In this document: piece after piece, positions 2,361 through 13,060 of the stretch
How the letters are laid out: the number at the start of each line of letters is the position of its first letter
Numbering within the stretch: position 1 is the stretch's first letter
Virus record (IMG/VR): IMGVR_UViG_3300024327_000023
Span: 1 to 35,328 of that record
Length of the DNA stretch: 35,328 nucleotides
Direction: 5' to 3' (one strand)
Origin: a virus
The notes under the pieces: model-generated
Told to the model about the DNA's origin: nothing
The model's input: only the letters and a program-made list of their open reading frames with translations
Database searches by the model: none
Position numbers and translations under genes: made by a program

Positions 2361-2660
2361 CTAAACTAACTTGTTGTCGTAGGCGTAGTTGATGCCATCG
2401 TCGGTCATTACCCAGTCGGTGCATTTCGCGCCTCTCGCGCTGTCTTGCGTGTCGCAGATCATTGACTTGTTTGACAGCGAAGCCATGACGCCGCCAATGG
2501 CCTGTTTGCTCCAGTTTAACTCAGCCATTAAATCGTCCGCATTCGTCCATGTCATGTTGTCATTGATCATGTCTTCAGCACACTCGGCACCATTGACGTT
2601 GACGCCTTCGTTGATGAAGACTACGAGCATTTGGCGTTCTTGCTGGGTCAGGTTGGTCAT
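2361..2660 (-). CDS. 99-aa winged-helix-like protein
   Basis: First gene after the leftward promoter at 2717-2745, with a strong AGGAG site. The protein begins MTNLTQQERQMLVVFINEG. Residues about 37-65 (WTNADDLMAELNWSKQAIGG, then VMASLSNKSMI) follow the helix-turn-helix-helix course of a winged helix. They are followed by a wing-like strand pair (DWVMTDDGINYAYDN). It may be a small DNA-binding or adaptor protein. The fold is suggested by pattern only. Confidence 0.75.
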   Translation of the reverse strand: MTNLTQQERQMLVVFINEGVNVNGAECAEDMINDNMTWTNADDLMAELNWSKQAIGGVMASLSNKSMICDTQDSARGAKCTDWVMTDDGINYAYDNKLV

Positions 2661-2677: not shown

Positions 2678-2704
2678 GGGCGGTGCGAGAAATTCGGGTT
2701 GCCC
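2678..2704 (-). promoter_or_regulatory. Leader hairpin copy A
   Basis: The minus-strand transcript reads GGGC, AACC, CGA, AUUUC, UCG, CACC, GCCC. The outer GGGC pairs with GCCC and the inner CGA with UCG, leaving an AACC/CACC internal loop. The other three copies have GCGC outer arms, so this outer stem differs on both sides in a compensating way. It begins 12 bases beyond the -10 box and ends four bases before the AGGAG site. An alternative CGGG-CAA-CCCG hairpin is possible in this copy. Confidence 0.65.
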
Positions 2705-2716
2705 GTTTGATGATTT

Positions 2717-2745
2717 AAAGTACTCCCTATTGACTTCAGGGTCAA
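2717..2745 (-). promoter_or_regulatory. Leftward promoter A with operator
   Basis: TTGACC (2740-2745) and TACTTT (2717-2722) are separated by 17 bases, a good sigma70-type match. The 16-bp dyad TTGACTTCAGGGTCAA (2730-2745, plus-strand reading) covers the -35 box and part of the spacer, and here it has 5-bp perfect arms. It should drive the string of small genes from 2660 to the left edge. Confidence 0.8.
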
Positions 2746-2754
2746 CAGCTAATA

Positions 2755-3078
2755 TCAAATAATATGCATTATTTTATCTTTTGCATCTTCAAAGCCGTTT
2801 CCGATTACACACTTATGACCGATTTTCTTCAGGTATTTGATCCAGTTCTTTTGATCGGCGGATGTCTTGCCGCCCGTCTCCCGTTTCATCTCAATCCACA
2901 ACAGCAGTTCTGGGACGAATAGATCTGGCACTCCCCGGCAAACGCCTTCGACTTTCAGTTTCATGGCGGTGGCTTTGTGCCGGTGGCCCCCATTTGGAAT
3001 TGCGAAGATTCGGATCTCTGGAAACTTCTGCCGAAACCATTGTACAAATTCGCGCTGCTCTTCATGCTCAGTTTTCAT
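2755..3078 (-). CDS. VRR-NUC domain nuclease
   Basis: The 107-residue protein is a stand-alone PD-(D/E)xK-type VRR-NUC domain. E7-Q8 lie in the first helix (HEEQREFVQWFR), with AIPNGG at 26-31. G49-V-P-D52 carries the catalytic Asp, E63-M-K65 carries the Glu and Lys, and Q76 follows. Stand-alone VRR-NUC proteins of phages act as structure-specific or Holliday-junction-type nucleases. It ends the recombination block, and its ATG overlaps the stop of the pyrophosphohydrolase-like gene. All expected catalytic residues are present. Confidence 0.88.
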   Translation of the reverse strand: MKTEHEEQREFVQWFRQKFPEIRIFAIPNGGHRHKATAMKLKVEGVCRGVPDLFVPELLLWIEMKRETGGKTSADQKNWIKYLKKIGHKCVIGNGFEDAKDKIMHII

Positions 3079-3401
3079 TTTTTTGGCCTGTCATCCAATA
3101 AGCACCCGTGTTCTTGGGCATCCAGTAAAATTCCACAACACGCTATGACATTTCCAAGGTGTGATTTCATTGTGTCAGGATCGTTGTCTTCGACTTCCTT
3201 CCACTCCTGTATATGCCGCATCATGGCGTTGACATATGTCATCGAAGAGACGCTCTTCTCTCGCCAATTCCACGGCCCATACTTATCGGCTCCAAGCTGG
3301 TGCGCTGCTGCTGCCGCTTCCAGCGCGGCCTTCGGTATGAGGCCCATGCTGGGTTTCTGATCGCCGTATTGTGTTTTTGGATTTGTGTCTTTCACTCCCA
3401 T
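3075..3401 (-). CDS. dATP/dGTP diphosphohydrolase-like (DUF5664-type) protein
   Basis: The 108-residue protein has the hallmark YGPWNWR (41-47), an R-H-x-x-x-W helix (62-67) with E71-D72, and HLGNVIACCGILLD (81-94). This fits the phage family annotated as the N-terminal domain of dATP/dGTP diphosphohydrolases. Members are thought to hydrolyse or bind dNTPs and so alter nucleotide pools during infection. The short length suggests a single domain. Its ATG lies within the end of the SF2 helicase gene. The family is recognised by pattern; activity is not shown. Confidence 0.75.
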   Translation of the reverse strand: MGVKDTNPKTQYGDQKPSMGLIPKAALEAAAAAHQLGADKYGPWNWREKSVSSMTYVNAMMRHIQEWKEVEDNDPDTMKSHLGNVIACCGILLDAQEHGCLLDDRPKK

Positions 3402-4978
3402 GTTCTCCCTATAACTCTGTGGTATTTCCCGTTCATTCTATATTGAATGTGGGACGGCGGCACGGCTGAATTCATTTCATCCGTTGCTATCTCATAGTCC
3501 AAAAATCTCATAGCCTCTATGTCCGCTCCAGACTTCATAGCCAATTCAGCGAATGTCCGAAGCGCCTTCTTCCCGGCGTATCCATCGTGTTCGATGGTCA
3601 GATATTCATGCACAGGCTTGTCCGATAATGCACCGTAATATGTGACGCGAAACATATCCTTGCCGCTGTTATAGCTGGTGTGTTTTCTCCACGTCCAACT
3701 GGTGACGTTCATCTCTATGTTTCCATAGCCCATGATATCGTCATCGTGCAGTTTTGGCTTCACAGGCGGCGCGGATTCGGGGAATGCCATGCCACAGGCT
3801 GGGCAGACTTTCACTGACAGGTGGACGATCTCGTCGCAGTTCTCACAGATCTTCATTGGCGCTTCGCCTGTCCCGGCCTTGCGGCCCGGATCGATTGCGG
3901 TGATCGGGCCATGCGTCCTGACAACTCCAGCGAAATCAAGAACCATGCAATGATCGGTGTGGCTCTTCGGCCTCATGCCTCTCCCTGCCATCTGCACATA
4001 CAGGGATGGCGACATAGTTGGGCGTAGCATAACGATCAGATCCAAATCCGGGTGATCGAAGCCGGTGGTCAGGACGTTGGCGTTTGTCAGCGCCTTAATC
4101 CGTCCCGCCTTGAAATCGTCAATGATCTGTTCTCGCTCCTTCTTCGGGGTCTTTCCGGTGATTGTTTCACATGAAACATTATTCTCCCTTAGTTCGTCCC
4201 TGATGTTATAGGCGTGGTTCACGCCGACACAGAAGAACAGCCAAGACTTCCTTTCCGCCGCCAATCTGATCGTCTCGTTGACGGCGCTCATGTTCTGGTA
4301 GATTGTATCGACAGACTTCTGAAGCTCGCTCTCAATGAATTCGCCGCCGCGCTTATGTACGCCGTCAGTGTCTAATCTCAGATTGGTTGTCTTGGAACTA
4401 AGCGGCGCGAGATGGCGCTTGGCTATCAGTTCTTCTATGGTGACGGGATCGATCAGGTCAGAGAATAAGGCTGGCTCATCTGTGATTAGGCCATGCCCAA
4501 GGCGATATGGCGTGGCGGTCAGCCCAACTACACGAATATGCGGATTAATTGTAGTGAGCTTTTCTATCAGATTCCGATACCCGCCTTCGGCCTTGTGGCT
4601 GACAAGGTGGCACTCATCGATGATCACAAGATCGACATGACCGATTTCCTCTGCGCGGTTCCTGACAGACTGAATCCCGGCGAATGTGATTGGCTCATCC
4701 AGCCGTCTTGATCTCAGCCCGGAAGAGTAGATGCCCATTGGCGCGTTGGGCCAATGCTCACGCATCTTCTCAGCATTTTGCTCAATCAATTCCTTCACAT
4801 GGGTCAGCATCAGAACACGGGTTTCAGGCCAGTTGGTCAGGGCATCCTTACAAAGCGCCGCGACAATATGGCTCTTCCCAGATCCGGTGGGTAGGACAAT
4901 GCACGGGTGTCCATCGTTCCATGCCCTGAACCAGCCGTAAAGCTGGTCGATGGTTCGCTGCTGGTAATCCCTAAGCAT
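3392..4978 (-). CDS. SF2 DEAD/DEAH-type helicase with zinc ribbon
   Basis: The 528-residue ATP-dependent helicase shows motif I PTGSGKS (30-36), motif II DECH (121-124), motif III TATP (154-157) and motif VI QMAGRGMR (329-336). Two Cys pairs (C378/C381, C392/C395) form a zinc ribbon after the second RecA-like lobe. The C-terminal 130 residues resemble the tail found on phage UvsW/RadD-like helicases. It overlaps the Cas4-like exonuclease gene by eight bases, so the two are probably made together for recombination-dependent replication. Fork or branch-migration activity is inferred from the family. Confidence 0.92.
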   Translation of the reverse strand: MLRDYQQRTIDQLYGWFRAWNDGHPCIVLPTGSGKSHIVAALCKDALTNWPETRVLMLTHVKELIEQNAEKMREHWPNAPMGIYSSGLRSRRLDEPITFAGIQSVRNRAEEIGHVDLVIIDECHLVSHKAEGGYRNLIEKLTTINPHIRVVGLTATPYRLGHGLITDEPALFSDLIDPVTIEELIAKRHLAPLSSKTTNLRLDTDGVHKRGGEFIESELQKSVDTIYQNMSAVNETIRLAAERKSWLFFCVGVNHAYNIRDELRENNVSCETITGKTPKKEREQIIDDFKAGRIKALTNANVLTTGFDHPDLDLIVMLRPTMSPSLYVQMAGRGMRPKSHTDHCMVLDFAGVVRTHGPITAIDPGRKAGTGEAPMKICENCDEIVHLSVKVCPACGMAFPESAPPVKPKLHDDDIMGYGNIEMNVTSWTWRKHTSYNSGKDMFRVTYYGALSDKPVHEYLTIEHDGYAGKKALRTFAELAMKSGADIEAMRFLDYEIATDEMNSAVPPSHIQYRMNGKYHRVIGRTWE

Positions 4979-6023
4979 CGAATGTATCCTCTACGCTTTC
5001 CACTATCTTCGCCCCCGGAAACGCCCTGCGCACTTCTTCAACTAACTCACGGCCTACGGCGTCGGGGTTGGCAATAATTTCGGAAGACGCATATGTGTAT
5101 GCGTCTCCCTCTCCATTACGGATAGGTTCGCCGTTGATAATATAAACGGCCTCATGTGGGTCAGTGCTTTCGCCCATCTCCCACGGGACAAGGTCAGGAT
5201 GCAGAACATGGCTATCGCAGCCGTCAACTTGGAACTTGGTAGGAATGTCGCCAGACTCATGCCGCGCACATGACCAAGAACCGTCTTCTTCGGCGGTGAC
5301 GTGAGCGCACGTCCGACAATTAACTTCCTTCGTCAATTTGGTTTCATGGCAGAAGCTATAGCTGTCGCAGAATTTGCACTCAAACCAACTGGGATCGGCG
5401 GATATGCCGTCAGGCATCCGCTCCGACAGTACGATGCGCTTGGATCTTTCCAGCAACTCTTTCGCAAACTTCTTGTCGTATCGGACGCGCTCTATGTACA
5501 AATTATCGTCGTCTTTGCAGACGGCGACATATAGCGCACGGTCAATCTTGGTTCCGTGCATGTACAACTGAAGCTGGGCATAATGAACAGGCTTTGATTT
5601 TTCAACGCCGTTTTTCTGCATGTCGGTGAATGACTTCAGGTTATGCGTCTTGAATTCGGCAACGTGCGGCTTTGTCGGCGCTTCTGGTACGCCATCAGTT
5701 ATGATGCCATCCAGACTGCCTGAGATATGGCATCCGAAGGTAACACGTTTCTGCATCTTCCCGGTGTGCGTGATGCGGATACCCGCCGCCTTCAAATCGG
5801 CAACTACCCAGTTTTCCTCGTTATGCCCACGGCGGAACATACGTAAGATCCTGCCGGGGAACTCAGGCTTCACGGCCCAGCGGAATGAAAGCCAAAGCTC
5901 ACGGTCACATTTTTTCCCTGCCATAGACGCACCGAAGTGTGGTCTGGGCCTTTCGGCACGGTCTTCGTGCGACTTGTCGATCCGGGTGATTAGGTCGTTG
6001 TCTCGTTTAGGTATTGCGGTCAT
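4971..6023 (-). CDS. Cas4/RecB-like PD-(D/E)xK exonuclease
   Basis: The 350-residue protein has the order of a RecB/Cas4-type nuclease. C39-D-R-E-L comes first, then H67-N-E-E, G-S-L-D105-G, E123-F-K125 and a QLQLYM motif (150-155). Possible zinc or iron-sulfur ligands follow at C216, C219, C225 and C236/C239. The arrangement of one N-terminal and three C-terminal cysteines suggests an Fe-S cluster as in Cas4/AddB. With the Sak4-like ATPase and DUF669-like ssDNA-binding protein upstream, it probably supplies 5'-end resection for phage recombination. About 100 C-terminal residues are family-specific. Confidence 0.88.
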   Translation of the reverse strand: MTAIPKRDNDLITRIDKSHEDRAERPRPHFGASMAGKKCDRELWLSFRWAVKPEFPGRILRMFRRGHNEENWVVADLKAAGIRITHTGKMQKRVTFGCHISGSLDGIITDGVPEAPTKPHVAEFKTHNLKSFTDMQKNGVEKSKPVHYAQLQLYMHGTKIDRALYVAVCKDDDNLYIERVRYDKKFAKELLERSKRIVLSERMPDGISADPSWFECKFCDSYSFCHETKLTKEVNCRTCAHVTAEEDGSWSCARHESGDIPTKFQVDGCDSHVLHPDLVPWEMGESTDPHEAVYIINGEPIRNGEGDAYTYASSEIIANPDAVGRELVEEVRRAFPGAKIVESVEDTFDA

Positions 6024-6529
6024 TGCTCTCTCCCAAAAAATTGTGTCCTGGTATTGGTTGCGATAAATAGATACCAGGCGCTATTCTCCATGCCGGTCAT
6101 ATTGCCAAACCATTTAACCCGTCCGACACTGACTACCTTCACGCACTTTTTCATATGCACTCCCATGCGCTTGTTGTGCATCATGTCAGCCGGTAATAGC
6201 AGCCAGGTCGGCGCGATATCCGACAAGTGATAGATTAGCGGATTTAAAATTGACCAGGTGTAGGGTGGATTGGTGATGAACATATCGCCTACACATTCCT
6301 GCAAATCCAATGCATCAACCCAAACACAAGGTCTGGATTCTTCTATATCTGATGCCCGCCGACACACAGCCCCGGCAAAATCTAAATGCTTTACAAGATC
6401 GCCAAGCCCTGCACATGGCTCGTCATATTCGACAAGCGGCGGCAAGTGTGCGAGTAGCGGAACAACAGCCTCATATGGTGTTGGATAAAAATCTTTTTCT
6501 ACCCTTTTAAATTCTGATCGTTTTCCCAT
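6020..6529 (-). CDS. Adenine-type DNA methyltransferase-like protein
   Basis: The 169-residue protein starts MGKRSEFKRVEKDFYPTP. The upstream open frame is basic and low in coding character, so 6529 is the best start. SAM-binding motif I is EPCAGLGDL (37-45), an acidic D61-I-E follows, and the catalytic motif IV is NPPY (87-90), as in N6-adenine methyltransferases. It is much shorter than most Dam-type enzymes, like the small phage methylases that lack a separate recognition domain. It could protect phage DNA from restriction. Its stop overlaps the exonuclease start, although a terminator lies just upstream. Confidence 0.8.
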   Translation of the reverse strand: MGKRSEFKRVEKDFYPTPYEAVVPLLAHLPPLVEYDEPCAGLGDLVKHLDFAGAVCRRASDIEESRPCVWVDALDLQECVGDMFITNPPYTWSILNPLIYHLSDIAPTWLLLPADMMHNKRMGVHMKKCVKVVSVGRVKWFGNMTGMENSAWYLFIATNTRTQFFGREQ

Positions 6530-6583
6530 ATTACTCTTGATCCTTCTCTTTGTTTTTCTGTTTTGAGCTTTTTGACCATGATG

Positions 6584-6616
6584 AAAAAAGCCGGGAAGCT
6601 TCTTAACTCCCCGGCT
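6584..6616 (-). terminator. Rho-independent terminator after DUF669 gene
   Basis: Read leftward, AGCCGGG pairs with CCCGGCT across a 14-base loop and is followed at once by TTTTTT. It lies just beyond the stop of the gene at 6627-7109 and upstream of the methyltransferase. I see no promoter between it and the methylase start at 6529. Genes from 6529 to 2755 therefore depend on read-through or antitermination. Confidence 0.8.
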
Positions 6617-6626
6617 ACTCCCCCTC

Positions 6627-7109
6627 TTATTTCTGCCAAGGCGCTTTCTTCGCGCCGTCATCGGATGCTTCGGAAGCTGGTGCAGACTTCGGCATCGGTG
6701 GCGAAGATCCGTCGATAGCCTTATAGGCTTTGACTTCGTTGCTATCCCCCCACTCTTCGGAGCGGCGGATCGATACCTTAATGGTGCAACTGCCGCCAAT
6801 AAGCTGATCCGTATCTTCGACAGTCGCAATGCCGATTGATCGCATCAGGCTATCCAATTGCTGACGCCCGATTTCTTCGGCCTTCGGGGTTGGGTTCTTG
6901 ATGTTGAGGTTTGTCCAAACAACACGGCCTTCGTGGCTTGGACCCGTCACATCAAAACGAACCTTAATGTAATTACCTGTGCCAGCCTTCGTGTCTTTCA
7001 GTTCGGCATCGGTCACGGTGACGTTGTACCATCCAGCCGGGATCGGCTGAAAATCGTTTTCGCTCTGGGGCGTGTCGCCCACGTTGAAAGTTTCTCCAAG
7101 AAAAGACAT
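6627..7109 (-). CDS. DUF669-type ssDNA-binding-like protein
   Basis: The 160-residue protein begins MSFLGETFNVGDTPQSEND, followed by a beta-rich core (AGWYNVTVTDAELKDTKAGT, then YIKVRFDVTG). An acidic, Pro/Ala-rich tail ends in KKAPWQK. This matches the DUF669 family, found next to phage ATPases and nucleases and thought to bind ssDNA through an OB-like fold. The flexible tail with a terminal aromatic resembles SSB tails. It is the last gene before the terminator in this part of the operon. Confidence 0.8.
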   Translation of the reverse strand: MSFLGETFNVGDTPQSENDFQPIPAGWYNVTVTDAELKDTKAGTGNYIKVRFDVTGPSHEGRVVWTNLNIKNPTPKAEEIGRQQLDSLMRSIGIATVEDTDQLIGGSCTIKVSIRRSEEWGDSNEVKAYKAIDGSSPPMPKSAPASEASDDGAKKAPWQK

Positions 7110-7113
7110 ATCT

Positions 7114-7497
7114 TTATTCCTTTGTGATTGTGAATGAGGGACGGCCCGGAGTCGTGGTGATGCCGCCCAAGAGTGGTTTCGTGATTGAATCGTCTGAATG
7201 TTTCCATGCAGACATTATGATCGAAGGCTTCCAGCTAAACAGGGTTGAGAGTAGATCTTCCAGCCCATGTTCGGCGGCAATCTCTTGCAGTTTGTCGCCA
7301 TCGACTTTGCGGTTCATACGTCCGACAATCTTGACCTTGTGGCCGGGAGCCTCAAGGTTCAGCGTTCCTTCAAGATCGTCTTGAACACGATAGATTTTGA
7401 TAAGCTCATCCTCTATCTCGCGCCGTGCTTCCACGGCTTCTTTTTCGGCCTTCTTTGCATCCAGCCAAATGTCGAACTTTTTGGTTAGGTCATCCAT
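7114..7497 (-). CDS. 127-aa phage protein next to recombination genes
   Basis: The start at 7497 (MDDLTKKFDIWLDAKKAEKE) is set by overlap with the stop of the HTH gene. The first 40 residues form a charged coiled-coil-like helix (KKAEKEAVEARREIEDELI). A beta strand (GHKVKIVGRMNRKV) and a short domain with FSWKPSIIMSAWK follow. Related proteins commonly lie between Sak4-like ATPase and DUF669 genes in phages, which suggests a recombination accessory role. There are no catalytic motifs. Confidence 0.78.
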   Translation of the reverse strand: MDDLTKKFDIWLDAKKAEKEAVEARREIEDELIKIYRVQDDLEGTLNLEAPGHKVKIVGRMNRKVDGDKLQEIAAEHGLEDLLSTLFSWKPSIIMSAWKHSDDSITKPLLGGITTTPGRPSFTITKE

Positions 7498-7819
7498 TGT
7501 CAATATCGCTCCATTCAAGGCCAAGCTGAAGCATTATGAAATCCACAGCTTTATGGTAGTCACGGCCTGCGTCGATAACAGCCGGGATCTCAATAGCGGC
7601 AATGTCTTCGATGGTAATACCCAATACCAAGCATATTGCGGAAACTGATGCCTTGCCGACTCGATTGGTTGGGGATTTTTTTGAAGACATCTTAGAAATG
7701 GTGTTCTGTCCACATCCAGATTCTTCTGCCAGATGGATTTTTGTTAACCCGCTCGCCTTCAGATGCGCTCGCATCTTAGACGTGTCAACAATCACGCTGT
7801 TGTGGAATGCTCCAGCCAT
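7490..7819 (-). CDS. XRE-like HTH protein with C-terminal extension
   Basis: The start at 7819 (MAGAFHNSVIVDTSKMRAHL) follows a GGAG site just after the Sak4-like stop. Residues about 15-70 read as an HTH: MRAHLKASGLTKIHLAEESG, then CGQNTISKMSSKK. A helical C-terminal part (AVIDAGRDYHKAVDFIMLQL) follows. It sits inside the recombination operon rather than at a switch, so it may autoregulate the operon or act as an adaptor. Target unknown. Confidence 0.72.
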   Translation of the reverse strand: MAGAFHNSVIVDTSKMRAHLKASGLTKIHLAEESGCGQNTISKMSSKKSPTNRVGKASVSAICLVLGITIEDIAAIEIPAVIDAGRDYHKAVDFIMLQLGLEWSDIDNG

Positions 7820-7820
7820 C

Positions 7821-8498
7821 TTACTTACTCCCAATCTTGTTAATGATTTCGCCAAGGTCTGGCGCTTCCCATGCTTCAAGCTTCGCGCCCATCCGGTGCT
7901 TGGCTTGCCATAGGCCATCGCTTTCCATCATCAACGCACGTTGGTTGACGCCGTCTTCATCCTTTTCGACGCGCATTGCTGCGACGATGTCGAAAGCATA
8001 TGGCAGGGACTGTCCCGCCTTCTGTCCCGGCATCGACGGCCCGTAGAGAACACGGCCCATTTCGTCAGTGGTCTTGGATAGCTGGGCGGTCATGTAAACA
8101 TTTTTGCCCTTCAGATCACGGAACAACCGAATAACCTCAGACATGGTGGTTTGCATTTCGCCGTAGGCTGCACGGGGATCTTTGTTGATTTTCTTCTCGT
8201 TTGCCAGACAGACTTCAGCAATTTCCGTGATGCTATCCAGCGCCACAGATTTGAATTGCTTTGCATCCTTGTCTTCGGTCAGCCAAGCGTAGGCTTCCTT
8301 CAGTTCATCCATGCTGCCGATTTCCATGAATGGAATATTTTCGTCAGCAAGTGTAAGCAAACCGCCTTCAGCCGATAAGATAATCGGATCGGGCAGGGTC
8401 TTGATCAGCATTGTCTTTCCAGATCCAGCGGCTCCATAAGCCAAGATCTTGATACCATCTGCCGATATGGTATTGGTTGATTGTAGATTAACTGCCAT
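7821..8498 (-). CDS. Sak4-like RecA-fold ATPase (AAA_24)
   Basis: The 225-residue protein has a Walker A GAAGSGKT (22-29), a Walker B-like VALDSI (85-90, D88) and a MTAQLSKT strand-loop near 137-144. This is the compact RecA-like core of phage nucleotide-binding proteins of the Sak4 type, which stimulate single-strand annealing together with a cognate SSB. The DUF669-like protein two genes downstream and the Cas4-like nuclease support this role. Length is normal for the family. Confidence 0.88.
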   Translation of the reverse strand: MAVNLQSTNTISADGIKILAYGAAGSGKTMLIKTLPDPIILSAEGGLLTLADENIPFMEIGSMDELKEAYAWLTEDKDAKQFKSVALDSITEIAEVCLANEKKINKDPRAAYGEMQTTMSEVIRLFRDLKGKNVYMTAQLSKTTDEMGRVLYGPSMPGQKAGQSLPYAFDIVAAMRVEKDEDGVNQRALMMESDGLWQAKHRMGAKLEAWEAPDLGEIINKIGSK

Positions 8499-8544
8499 TT
8501 GGCATCTCCTAGCTAGACCAGTTCGCGGAATTGCGGGTCGGCCT

Positions 8545-8808
8545 TTACCCCTTTAAACTAATGCCCATTTCACGGGCCTCTTTGCGTAGGGACTTCGGAA
8601 GCTTCACGCCGCGTTGCAATAGGTCGCGGACAGTGCGCTCTGTGATTTTTCGGCTCTTCTCCGCCCAGTAGGCGAGGTTCTCCGGGGTGTTCATTGTGCG
8701 CGGATCTCCATACGCACGGGCCTTTTCTTCGGCAGACAAAGGCGGCGGCATCATGCCCAGCGCCTTGTATACCTTGGCGGTGTCGAGAATTTCCCGGTCA
8801 GATCTCAT
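8545..8808 (-). CDS. 87-aa helical hypothetical protein
   Basis: The protein starts MRSDREILDTAKVYKALGM after a GGGAG site and is helical and basic throughout. The C-terminal half (ITERTVRDLLQRGVKLPKSL) looks like a short HTH-type or scaffold helix pair. No catalytic motif is present. It lies in the early operon just upstream of the Sak4-like gene. Function is unknown. Confidence 0.72.
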   Translation of the reverse strand: MRSDREILDTAKVYKALGMMPPPLSAEEKARAYGDPRTMNTPENLAYWAEKSRKITERTVRDLLQRGVKLPKSLRKEAREMGISLKG

Positions 8809-8810
8809 AT

Positions 8811-8948
8811 CTATGCTCCCAACATTTTGATCATCATTAAGACGTGCTTCAAGGTTCCCATGTGGATCAAGCGGCCCTTCTCTGCGACAACATCCGCGCC
8901 CGAAGCCTTAAACGTCCAACCGCGAAATTCTGCTTCCTGCCTAGTCAT
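8811..8948 (-). CDS. 45-aa small hypothetical protein
   Basis: The start at 8948 (MTRQEAEFRGWTFKASGADV) is chosen because its ATG overlaps the TAA of the upstream 95-residue gene (TAATG). A longer frame would extend into that gene without support. The compact beta-alpha layout (GADVVAEKGRLIHMGTLKHV) is typical of tiny phage early proteins. Function is unknown. Confidence 0.65.
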   Translation of the reverse strand: MTRQEAEFRGWTFKASGADVVAEKGRLIHMGTLKHVLMMIKMLGA

Positions 8949-9235
8949 TATGCATTCTCCCTTGAGAGCTTGAGTGAAACGACAAGAGCTTGCTTGGAAT
9001 TTGCGAGAACCCAATCTTCGCCCAACTCTTCTTTCGCGGCCTTGGTGTCCATCGTCCAGCGGACGGCTTCGACTAACTTCAGGCCATGATCATCGTCTGT
9101 GCCGGTGACAAACTTGACGCCTTGGCCTTCCATGCCAGAAACGATGGCTTCTTTGAGTGCCTTCTTTTCGGCGGTGAGAGACTTGATCTTGGCGTCGATG
9201 TCGAGGTGGCGCTGGACTGCTTGGTTGATGTTCAT
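8948..9235 (-). CDS. 95-aa coiled-coil phage protein
   Basis: The N-terminal 40 residues are a charged helix with heptad-like spacing (RHLDIDAKIKSLTAEKKALK). A small domain follows with VRWTMDTKAAKEELGEDWV and a Ser/Lys-rich end. This arrangement is common in early operons of Proteobacteria phages, usually beside recombination genes. It has a GGAG site. Its biochemical role is unknown; a structural or adaptor role is likely. Confidence 0.75.
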   Translation of the reverse strand: MNINQAVQRHLDIDAKIKSLTAEKKALKEAIVSGMEGQGVKFVTGTDDDHGLKLVEAVRWTMDTKAAKEELGEDWVLANSKQALVVSLKLSRENA

Positions 9236-9294
9236 TTTAATTCTCCGGTTTGAAAAGTTCAGGTTGGTTTTACTACTGCCTCAAGCCCGTCCCA

Positions 9295-9319
9295 TTTCTG
9301 GGTACGGGCCTTTTGGGCG
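9295..9319. other. Intergenic hairpin with bulge
   Basis: GCCCGT pairs with ACGGGC, and a CCCA/TGGG inner stem is separated from it by one bulged base. On the minus strand the loop is GAAA, a stable tetraloop type. It is not followed by a T-tract on the minus strand, while a short TTTT follows one base later on the plus strand. It lies between two leftward genes, and its role is uncertain (partial terminator or processing site). Confidence 0.5.
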
Positions 9320-9333
9320 TTCTGCTGATTATC

Positions 9334-9564
9334 TTACGCTAATTCAACTTTCGTCTGGTGGACGGTTTCCTGCCAAGCCATCAAGGCGATTTTGGCAACG
9401 ACAAAGCAGAGTGACTGTCTGGTCGGAAGGCCGTTGTCGGCTAATGCCTCTTTGGCTTTCCATGCTACTGCCTTGACTGATGAACGGGTGTGCAAATCCC
9501 CGACTTCAAACAGTGACTGCATCTCATCTGCAATCTCTGTGATTTTTTGATCCGTTACAAACAT
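9334..9564 (-). CDS. 76-aa helical hypothetical protein
   Basis: First gene after promoter B and its leader hairpin, with a GGAG site. It begins MFVTDQKITEIADEMQSLF and is all-helical by pattern. The C-terminal helix (LCFVVAKIALMAWQETV) is amphipathic. No motif is recognised. Its position as the promoter-proximal gene ahead of the recombination operon suggests early expression. Confidence 0.72.
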   Translation of the reverse strand: MFVTDQKITEIADEMQSLFEVGDLHTRSSVKAVAWKAKEALADNGLPTRQSLCFVVAKIALMAWQETVHQTKVELA

Positions 9565-9583
9565 CGTCCGTCTCCATTTTCTT

Positions 9584-9608
9584 GCGCGGTCAGATTTTCT
9601 GGGTGCGC
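9584..9608 (-). promoter_or_regulatory. Leader hairpin copy B
   Basis: The minus-strand transcript reads GCGC, ACC, CAGA, AAA, UCUG, ACC, GCGC. The outer GCGC arms and the inner CAGA/UCUG arms pair, leaving a symmetric ACC/ACC internal loop. It starts 12 bases beyond the -10 box of promoter B and lies upstream of the GGAG site of the 76-residue gene. Confidence 0.75.
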
Positions 9609-9620
9609 TTCAATGATTGA

Positions 9621-9649
9621 AATATAGGGGATATTGATGTTGGGGTCAA
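9621..9649 (-). promoter_or_regulatory. Leftward promoter B with operator
   Basis: TTGACC (9644-9649) and TATATT (9621-9626) are 17 bases apart, close to the sigma70 consensus. The dyad TTGATGTTGGGGTCAA (9634-9649, plus-strand reading) overlaps the -35 box. This is probably the main promoter for the recombination operon from 9564 leftward. Confidence 0.82.
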
Positions 9650-9663
9650 CAACTAAATGCAAA

Positions 9664-9858
9664 TTAATTCAATCTTTTTTGCAGTTCGACGGTGACGGCG
9701 TCCCATTCGGCCCAGAGCTTTTCGCCATACGGGTGATCGGTTTTCTGCCAATCGACGTTCGCCGCCCAACACTCTTTGATGTCCCTGATGATGAACCGAA
9801 GCTCATCGTCAGATTTGAATTTGGCGGCGGCTTCGTATTTTGCTAAGAGGCTTTCCAT
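9664..9858 (-). CDS. 64-aa hypothetical protein
   Basis: The protein begins MESLLAKYEAAAKFKSDDEL with a GGGAG site. It is helical and charged, with a WAANVDWQKTDHPYGEKLW middle section. It is the second gene after promoter C and ends just upstream of promoter B. Function is unknown. Confidence 0.7.
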   Translation of the reverse strand: MESLLAKYEAAAKFKSDDELRFIIRDIKECWAANVDWQKTDHPYGEKLWAEWDAVTVELQKRLN

Positions 9859-9869
9859 GATATCTCTCC

Positions 9870-10061
9870 CTACACTGCCATCTCAAGGTCGATGCCGATT
9901 TCTTTGTGTTCATCGATGATCGCTTGAGCTTCAATCGAATTGAATTCTTGGGCATTGTCTTCGCCGCGCCAATCGTATCCCCAAGTATTTCCTTCCGTCG
10001 AACCGAAATAGTGGGTGAGGTAGTGGGGGTAATCGGCGGTGGTGCGAATTGTGTAGATCAT
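9870..10061 (-). CDS. 63-aa small early protein
   Basis: First gene after promoter C, with a strong AGGAG site. It begins MIYTIRTTADYPHYLTHYF and has an aromatic-rich N-terminal half (TWGYDWRGEDN) and a helical acidic C-terminus. No known motif is present. The strong promoter, leader and ribosome site suggest abundant early expression. Confidence 0.72.
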   Translation of the reverse strand: MIYTIRTTADYPHYLTHYFGSTEGNTWGYDWRGEDNAQEFNSIEAQAIIDEHKEIGIDLEMAV

Positions 10062-10077
10062 TTGTTTTTCTCCTGTG

Positions 10078-10102
10078 GCGCTGTCAGATTTTCTGGTTGC
10101 GC
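10078..10102 (-). promoter_or_regulatory. Leader hairpin copy C
   Basis: The minus-strand transcript reads GCGC, AAC, CAGA, AAA, UCUG, ACA, GCGC. The outer GCGC arms and inner CAGA/UCUG arms pair around an AAC/ACA internal loop. It starts 12 bases beyond the -10 box of promoter C and ends three bases before the AGGAG site. Confidence 0.75.
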
Positions 10103-10114
10103 GTTTGATTATTT

Positions 10115-10143
10115 AAAGTACCCCATATTGAACTTTAGGTCAA
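10115..10143 (-). promoter_or_regulatory. Leftward promoter C with operator
   Basis: TTGACC (10138-10143) and TACTTT (10115-10120) are 17 bases apart. The dyad TTGAACTTTAGGTCAA (10128-10143, plus-strand reading) covers the -35 box. It should drive the 63- and 64-residue genes. Confidence 0.82.
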
Positions 10144-10148
10144 TAACT

Positions 10149-10619
10149 TTATTCAATTATTTCCAATATTTCTTTGACGATTTTGCGCTTGCCCCAGTAG
10201 TCGCTGATGTTCTCTTTGCCATGTTGGTCGATCACTTCGTCGCCGCGCACAACTTGGACATGGCCGGTGGTGGTGACGATGTAGCGTTTTCCAGCGGCGG
10301 TATGCATCAGGCTGAAATTCTTCAAGGACGTGCGGCGGGGCAGATCGATCTCTTTTGTTTTGACGCCCAGATCCGTCAGCGCCTTGGCGCGGAAGACTCT
10401 CTGCGTTCCGCCTTTCCAGTTGCCGCCCATTTTGTGATGTTTGGCATATGCAGCCCGTGCTTCGGACAGGTTACAGCCAGCGGCGATTGCCATCGCGGTC
10501 AAGCCACAGTTTGGACCCATCTTGGCATCGCCCGGAAGGCTCATGCCGTCAGTGCTGATTTTTTTGGGGGAGAAGTCGAAGAGATCAAATTGTTCGATCT
10601 GGAATTTCGTGCGGCTCAT
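10149..10619 (-). CDS. Papain/C39-like cysteine peptidase-fold protein
   Basis: The 156-residue protein has GPNCGLTA at 35-42, placing C38 at the head of a helix. GKRYIVTTTGHVQVVRGDEV follows (H120), then D131. This Cys-His-Asp order is that of papain-like and C39-like peptidases, a recurring type of small phage protein. It is the first gene of the leftward arm, directly after the switch promoter and leader hairpin, so it should be among the first proteins made and may act on a host protein. Peptidase activity is inferred from residue order. Confidence 0.72.
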   Translation of the reverse strand: MSRTKFQIEQFDLFDFSPKKISTDGMSLPGDAKMGPNCGLTAMAIAAGCNLSEARAAYAKHHKMGGNWKGGTQRVFRAKALTDLGVKTKEIDLPRRTSLKNFSLMHTAAGKRYIVTTTGHVQVVRGDEVIDQHGKENISDYWGKRKIVKEILEIIE

Positions 10620-10634
10620 GTGCTAGGCTCCTTG

Positions 10635-10660
10635 GCGCGGTTGGAAAATTCCGGTTGCGC
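10635..10660 (-). promoter_or_regulatory. Leader hairpin copy D
   Basis: The minus-strand transcript reads GCGC, AACC, GGA, AUUU, UCC, AACC, GCGC. The outer GCGC arms and inner GGA/UCC arms pair around a fully symmetric AACC/AACC internal loop. The inner stem sequence differs from copies B and C on both sides. It starts 12 bases beyond the -10 box and lies two bases from the AGGAG site of the peptidase-like gene. Confidence 0.72.
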
Positions 10661-10667
10661 TTTTCTA

Positions 10668-10696
10668 TTTACATAATACATTATTTGAACTATGGT
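10668..10696 (+). promoter_or_regulatory. Rightward promoter for Cro-like gene
   Basis: TTTACA (10668-10673) and TATGGT (10691-10696) are 17 bases apart on the plus strand. The -10 box falls inside the 16-bp dyad shared with the leftward switch promoter. An AAAGGA ribosome site follows at about 10716, ahead of the ATG at 10729. The match is moderate. Confidence 0.6.
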
Positions 10697-10700
10697 GCAA
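10673..10700 (-). promoter_or_regulatory. Leftward switch promoter D with operator
   Basis: TTGCAC (10695-10700) and TATTAT (10673-10678) are 16 bases apart. The dyad TTGAACTATGGTGCAA (10685-10700, plus-strand reading) overlaps the -35 box here and also the -10 box of the opposing promoter. One operator could thus control both directions. Confidence 0.75.
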
Positions 10701-10728
10701 CATCTAAATGCAAAGAAAGGAAAATAAA

Positions 10729-10890
10729 ATGAAGACTTCTGAGGCAATTGAGCATTTCGGCAGCATTAAAAAGCTCGCAGATGCCCTTGGCATCTGGCCC
10801 CATCCAATTTACCGCTGGAAAGATTCGCCGCCCAAGCTGAGACAGTTTGAGCTTGAGCGTTTGACTGACGGTGAATTGGTGGCTGACTGA
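10729..10890 (+). CDS. Cro-like DNA-binding protein
   Basis: The 53-residue protein begins MKTSEAIEHFGSIKKLADAL and continues GIWPHPIYRWKDSPPKLRQFE, matching the small P22-Cro/YdaS type: helix 1, HTH, then a short LTDGELV end. The start at 10729 is supported by AAAGGA; an upstream ATG at 10708 lacks a site. It sits alone at the divergent switch and overlaps the primase start by one base. It probably represses the shared operators. Small size and position fit a Cro role. Confidence 0.82.
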   Translation: MKTSEAIEHFGSIKKLADALGIWPHPIYRWKDSPPKLRQFELERLTDGELVAD

Positions 10891-13031: not shown

Positions 13032-13060
13032 TTGCACTGAGGTTCAATATTTGGTAGGGT
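13032..13060 (+). promoter_or_regulatory. Rightward promoter E with operator
   Basis: TTGCAC (13032-13037) and TAGGGT (13055-13060) are 17 bases apart on the plus strand. The dyad TTGCACTGAGGTTCAA (13032-13047) has the same length and half-sites as those of the four leftward promoters. The expected transcript starts only about 13 bases before the ATG at 13080, around the GGAG site. It would drive the oxygenase, terminase and perhaps all virion genes. Confidence 0.65.

Follow-up and report, generated by a model that had tools for sequence, protein, structure and literature searches.

We analysed a 35,328-base virus record from IMG/VR (IMGVR_UViG_3300024327_000023; this whole stretch is the window below) and found that its early genes are repeatedly preceded by a small RNA hairpin with a conserved internal loop, placed between promoter and ribosome site. 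Sequence comparison across phages makes it almost certain that this RNA structure is real. On the same kind of evidence, we favour with moderate confidence a role as a cis-acting leader RNA at the 5′ end of phage transcripts, whose loop would be bound by a factor that tunes the translation or stability of early and recombination mRNAs. The hairpins of the window, read 5′ to 3′ on the minus strand, are as follows.

2704-2678, minus strand: hairpin 1, GGGC-AACC-CGA-AUUUC-UCG-CACC-GCCC, the form with a 4x4 loop (sequence, RNAfold)
9608-9584, minus strand: hairpin 2, GCGC-ACC-CAGA-AAA-UCUG-ACC-GCGC (sequence, RNAfold, leave-out model)
10102-10078, minus strand: hairpin 3, GCGC-AAC-CAGA-AAA-UCUG-ACA-GCGC (sequence, RNAfold, leave-out model)
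10660-10635, minus strand: hairpin 4, GCGC-AACC-GGA-AUUU-UCC-AACC-GCGC (sequence, RNAfold, leave-out model)
8517-8542, minus strand: probable hairpin copy 5, degenerate and promoter-less, before the Sak4 gene, (AG)GCCG ACC CGC AAUUCC GCG AAC UGGU(CU)

The initial annotation had listed the first four, and all are present exactly where it put them, each starting exactly 12 nucleotides (nt) past a −10 box, as it had said. Its start near +7 has to be shifted: the −10 spacing puts the hairpins nearer +1 to +6, and the window copies are predicted to begin near +6, assuming the usual 6–7 nt from −10 box to transcription start. The gap to the ribosome site, given there as 2–11 nt, is 2–8 nt in the window leaders. 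Its count of four holds for these copies but leaves out the probable fifth, which has no promoter. This fifth copy has the same fold as the others and a homologous copy with altered bases in the relatives L019 and L127; its covariance-model score in the window is close to noise (E 2.3).

The anatomy of the element is as follows. The outer stem has 4–6 base pairs (bp) of free sequence, and the inner stem has 3–4 bp, usually closed by C-G, with a terminal loop of 3–7 nt. Between them lies a symmetric internal loop, 3x3 (or 4x4), of nearly fixed bases, RA[AC] on the 5′ side and A[CA]N on the 3′ side; across relatives, the constant unpaired bases read RA[AC]...[GA]A[CA]N. RNAfold predicted the hairpin in all four window leaders, with fold-energy z-scores of −0.75, −1.33, −3.29 (hairpin 3) and −0.57; three of the four copies are not separable from shuffles, and fold energy is weak evidence when taken alone. 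Covariation inside the window is thin, amounting to one outer pair and the inner arms. With only one of four hairpins clearly more stable than shuffles, the window by itself cannot carry the case; it is the comparative data that lift the hairpins above chance, because relatives supply the covariation.

We collected 135 elements from IMG/VR contigs and phage genomes, comprising 91 distinct sequences and 31 different 4-nt arms. A search anchored on Sak4 yielded 80 loci in viruses and 41 in bacterial assemblies. A promoter-anchored pattern returned true relatives mixed with chance hits, and a strict scan for hairpin plus ribosome site was discarded, as its 31 hits lay mostly inside coding sequence and were apparently due to chance. 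Among 51 seed sequences, 96.8% of alignment cells were paired, compared with 63.6% after shuffling, and the covariation score was 0.819, compared with 0.156 after shuffling and at most 0.143 when the pairing partner was slid. Because pairing had served as a filter in finding these seeds, we added two unbiased tests. First, sites were picked by core sequence alone and split by the presence of a downstream ribosome site and start. Four of four arm pairs formed in 41 of the 64 sites with a ribosome site (arm shuffles gave a mean of 4.9 and a maximum of 12), compared with 4 of the 120 sites without one. Second, we scanned IMG/VR for CAACCGGAT(N2-4)CCGACCG, a pattern in which the closing C-G pair is fixed and the other arm bases are free; of the hits with a ribosome site, 38/43 had at least three further pairs, compared with 3/47 of those lacking one. 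A tree of 66 Sak4 proteins requires no fewer than 25 changes of the 4-nt arm, and the outer helix is present in the predicted fold of 132 of the 135 leaders.

A leave-out covariance model, from which the window and its near relatives were excluded, recovered two window copies clearly (9583, 21.6 bits, E 0.0033; 10077, 20.5 bits, E 0.0067) and a third weakly (10634, 16.0 bits, E 0.14). It missed the copy at 2678, which has the 4x4-loop form; this copy scored 22.9 bits in an earlier model of which it was itself a seed. Two features expected of a structured cis-acting leader RNA were thus found, namely covariation across independent lineages and placement between promoter and ribosome site, and the earlier proposal of a structured 5′ leader with covarying arms and constant loop bases is borne out by the relatives.

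The element is not confined to the window phage. L003 and L019 (primase 73% identical) carry three leaders with altered arms or inner stems, and the AT-rich phages L005-L020 (primase 55% identical) have AGCU-AACC-GGA...UCC-AACC-AGCU before Sak4. In a GC-rich lineage met in the promoter-anchored scan, GGCGC-AAC-CCG...CGG-ACC-GCGCC stands before Sak4 together with a different operator. Many other Sak4 upstream regions have the same architecture with other arms (CACCAC/GUGGUG, CGCUUC/GAAGCG, UUGAUC/GAUCAA, GUCAC/GUGAC and more). The leader core is also kept before homologues of other window genes: the homologue of the 9870-10061 gene in L261 (46% identity) has the same core with different arms, as does that of the 10149-10619 gene in L284 (30% identity; leader GGGGCAACCGGATAGGCCGACCGCCCC). 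Cultured phages carry the element too, namely Idiomarinaceae phage 1N2-2 and Salicola phage CGphi29, and Alteromonas phages PB15/XX1924 have a diverged hairpin before Sak4 to which the covariance model gives no score. The window DNA itself had no match among annotated phages. Most virus records of 25–53 kb hold one or two clear copies; the window is rich in copies, with four and a degenerate fifth.

Sak4 is the gene most often found behind the leader in other phages: 71 of the 135 elements precede it, and the other 64 precede small genes, mostly unnamed, from about 50 families. In L019 (5000-7560, minus strand), and also in L003, the gene behind the second leader contains a long tandem repeat (GTGGAGTGCTGCTGC...), around which the 10149-10619 homologue appears to be split.

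In nearly all of the 108 elements (of 135) with a promoter, the hairpin starts 7–12 nt past the −10 box, which puts its predicted start at about +1 to +6. A ribosome site follows 1–11 nt past the hairpin in nearly all copies, and the start codon lies 18 ± 3.7 nt past it in the collection of 135. Promoter-less copies occur before Sak4 in L254, L263, L291 and L340 and before one other gene in L368, and they sit directly 3′ of a GC-rich or terminator-like hairpin, for example GCGGGGCTCGATGCCCCGC. Together with the window Sak4 copy and its counterparts in L019/L127, such copies link the element to the start of a message or gene, not to promoter DNA.

These data suggest a working mechanism. Phage early transcripts would carry the leader RNA at their 5′ end or no more than about 6 nt from it. 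The constant unpaired bases on drifting stems point to ligand recognition of the loop, most likely by a trans-acting RNA-binding factor, and binding may set the translation initiation or the lifetime of the Sak4 and single-stranded DNA-binding protein (SSB) recombination mRNAs and of other early mRNAs as a group. The distribution of targets, with 71 elements preceding Sak4 and the others spread over about 50 families, is what a regulon would give. As the commonest target is the Sak4-DUF7173-SSB operon and self-controlling SSBs are known (T4 gp32), an autogenous or early-to-late switch is the natural guess, and no more than a guess; Sak4 and the DUF669 SSB would be the candidate autogenous repressors. 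An attempt to single out one module gene as the ligand by co-occurrence was dropped, since co-occurrence was confounded by relatedness.

The factor is probably encoded by the phage, or else is a conserved machine that serves phage RNAs only. We surveyed 464 alpha- and gammaproteobacterial genomes and six genomes around sampled loci. The element with both promoter and ribosome site was found only on contigs holding the phage module; no convincing match before a host gene was seen in the 464 genomes, in which other model hits had no ribosome site and start after them. The absence from host genes in the genomes sampled points to a phage-encoded ligand, and the idea of a host regulon was dropped. 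The element occurs in several copies per genome before unrelated genes and is restricted to phage sequence among these genomes. We hold a broader possibility more tentatively: the element may be a new class of phage regulatory RNA, a portable leader of early genes, and the Sak4/SSB/primase module of the phage would encode an RNA-binding protein, as yet unrecognised, that reads it and thereby controls an entire early regulon post-transcriptionally in phages of diverse hosts.

Several points weigh against a factor-bound leader. The distance between hairpin and promoter varies less than that between hairpin and start codon, a pattern at least as compatible with a function at the 5′ end as with ribosome occlusion. 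In the window leaders the hairpin leaves the ribosome site free, and thus there is no built-in switch. The element is not recognisable in Roseobacter phage CRP-902, which has a related module, or at many loci whose Sak4 identity is below about 55%. The genome search scored only the best 27–150 candidate sites per genome, so that host use is not fully excluded. The ligand of the loop is putative; its existence and identity, the transcription start and the direction of regulation are all things that we infer. The 10149-10619 protein has homologues in both CRP-902 and Sphingomonas phage Kimi, and the element was not found in either phage; phages that have a related module and no recognisable element indicate that the element is not essential to the module.

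The strongest competing explanation, which we regard as possible though doubtful, is that the hairpin needs no ligand and shields early mRNAs from 5′-end-dependent decay (RppH/RNase E), as in ompA. The predicted start at about +1 to +6 would suit such a stabiliser, and the stem-loop of the ompA 5′ untranslated region lies near the mRNA 5′ end in a leader of about 50 nt, as is predicted here. At 58 of 101 loci, the SSB-like gene of this operon, DUF669, is also followed by a strong GC hairpin, mostly without a U tract, with a median energy of −13.9 kcal/mol compared with −2.5 to −6.6 after five other module genes; with the leader, it would bracket the Sak4-DUF7173-SSB segment of the mRNA. In the window this hairpin lies at 6589-6616 on the minus strand and is perhaps a 3′ mRNA stabiliser or a partial terminator. 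However, a stabiliser does not need conserved unpaired bases, and known ompA-type cases have no conserved internal-loop sequence, whereas here the loop is the most conserved part and the stems drift. About five unpaired nt also precede the window hairpins; classic 5′ stabilisers tolerate fewer than about five ahead of the hairpin.

Antitermination by a promoter-proximal RNA that modifies RNA polymerase, as put or nut does, so that terminators of the early operon are read through, is unlikely. The hairpin or terminator-like site after the SSB gene keeps both this explanation and a pair of 5′ and 3′ stabilisers alive: at 22 of 113 loci, and in the window at 6616-6589, DUF669 is followed by a terminator-like site within the operon. 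The usual number of one or two copies per genome, placed where the recombination operon begins, the tight spacing from the promoter and the restriction to phages, yet to phages of different hosts, also suit antitermination. Many copies, however, head just one or two small genes, a scan found no terminator between the three neighbouring cassettes of the window, a ribosome site always adjoins the element, and promoter-less copies occur. HK022 put is likewise a phage-restricted structured RNA near the start of an early operon with conserved unpaired bases, but it spans about 65–70 nt with two stem-loops, suppresses termination with no phage protein involved, and has no tie to ribosome sites or single-gene cassettes. 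We met no two adjacent put-type stem-loops: there is one hairpin of 25–31 nt (typically about 27), with no second stable stem in the leader folds. Lambda nut also places a short hairpin in early phage transcripts; its boxB, a hairpin of 15 nt with a GNRA-like loop, is accompanied by boxA, whereas the present hairpin has a symmetric internal loop and no boxA-like stretch was seen in the leaders of about 50 nt, read whole.

A third explanation, which we consider very unlikely, is that the hairpin merely keeps the ribosome site open or spaced, as a standby site, and that the loop is conserved for three-dimensional stability. The ribosome site does stand close behind the hairpin in nearly all copies and is unpaired in all four window leaders, but it is unpaired in only 67 of 135 bulk folds, and the restriction to one phage module would be left unexplained. 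That the element is instead a DNA operator, in which a repressor binds direct ACC repeats or an inverted repeat and the RNA pairing is incidental, is highly improbable despite its location just downstream of regulated promoters: the arms differ yet remain complementary even among copies in one genome, the constant AAC...ACC bases form no DNA dyad, a separate dyad (TTG-N9-TCAA) already lies upstream over the −35/spacer of the same promoters, and promoter-less copies exist.

Compared with translational operators, the element resembles the MS2 coat hairpin and the T4 gp32 leader in being a short hairpin ahead of a ribosome site. The likeness to gp32 goes further, since gp32, itself an SSB, regulates its own mRNA and the present leader often heads a Sak4-SSB operon. 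Each of those operators, unlike this element, serves a single gene and overlaps its ribosome site or start codon; here a repressor is only putative. The hairpin is not an intrinsic terminator or attenuator, being followed by CAAGGAG-like ribosome sites and not by a U run. Nor is it a CsrA/RsmA site (GGA in an ANGGAN loop): its GGA belongs to the paired inner arm, where many copies have CAG, CUG or CCG instead. Phage-associated leader motifs in Rfam are likewise conserved structured RNAs, but Rfam 15 gave no match in the window at the curated gathering cut-offs; at E ≤ 5 in L134, L152, L140, L178, L138 and L210, the only hits were four unrelated ones below threshold, all away from the element. 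We found no account of the element in the open papers covered; subscription literature, including a later large survey of bacterial RNA motifs, was outside our scope. A cis-acting leader RNA is a known kind of element, and this family, its internal loop and its repeated use before early genes appear to be new.

Few RNA structures are known that one phage lineage reuses before unrelated early genes. The present element suggests that control after transcription, or protection of the mRNA, is widespread among phage recombination genes. It is common in environmental phages, and the cultured phages of Idiomarina and Salicola relatives make direct testing possible. The element also marks phage early genes, so far about 50 families of small proteins, and should lead to the binding factor.

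The leader promoters of the window and the genes behind them are the following.

2717..2745, minus strand: promoter of hairpin 1, TTGACC-17-TACTTT, overlapping the operator-like dyad TTGACCCTGAAGTCAA (2730-2745; sequence)
9621..9649, minus strand: promoter of hairpin 2, TTGACC-17-TATATT, with dyad TTGACCCCAACATCAA (9634-9649)
10115..10143, minus strand: promoter of hairpin 3, TTGACC-17-TACTTT, with dyad TTGACCTAAAGTTCAA (10128-10143; sequence)
10673..10700, minus strand: promoter of hairpin 4, TTGCAC-16-TATTAT, with dyad TTGCACCATAGTTCAA (10685-10700; sequence)
2361..2660, minus strand: gene behind hairpin 1, 99 amino acids, no family
9334..9564, minus strand: gene behind hairpin 2, 76 amino acids, no family
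9870..10061, minus strand: gene behind hairpin 3, 63 amino acids
10149..10619, minus strand: gene behind hairpin 4, 156 amino acids, phrog_3754
7821..8498, minus strand: Sak4-like single-stranded DNA annealing protein, phrog_124, E 6.8e-57

The four leader promoters are sigma70-like, with −35 boxes TTGACC or TTGCAC and spacers of 16–17. An operator-like dyad, TTG(A/C)-N8-TCAA, lies on the −35/spacer of all four, and the same dyad occurs without a hairpin at a promoter-like site at 13032-13047 on the plus strand. The perfect form, TTGA-N8-TCAA, has only three sites in the window, all at dyad-bearing promoters. The dyad is probably the site of the Cro-like protein encoded at 10708-10890. Besides Cro, the early region encodes primase, Sak4, DUF7173, DUF669 (SSB-like) and a Cas4/YqaJ-type exonuclease, and further an SNF2-like helicase, a dATP/dGTP diphosphohydrolase-like protein and a VRR-nuclease. 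Two consecutive plus-strand genes adjoining the primase gene match nuclease PHROGs: 13080-13565 matches phrog_274 (named DNA endonuclease V) and 13565-14239 matches phrog_16945 (endonuclease).

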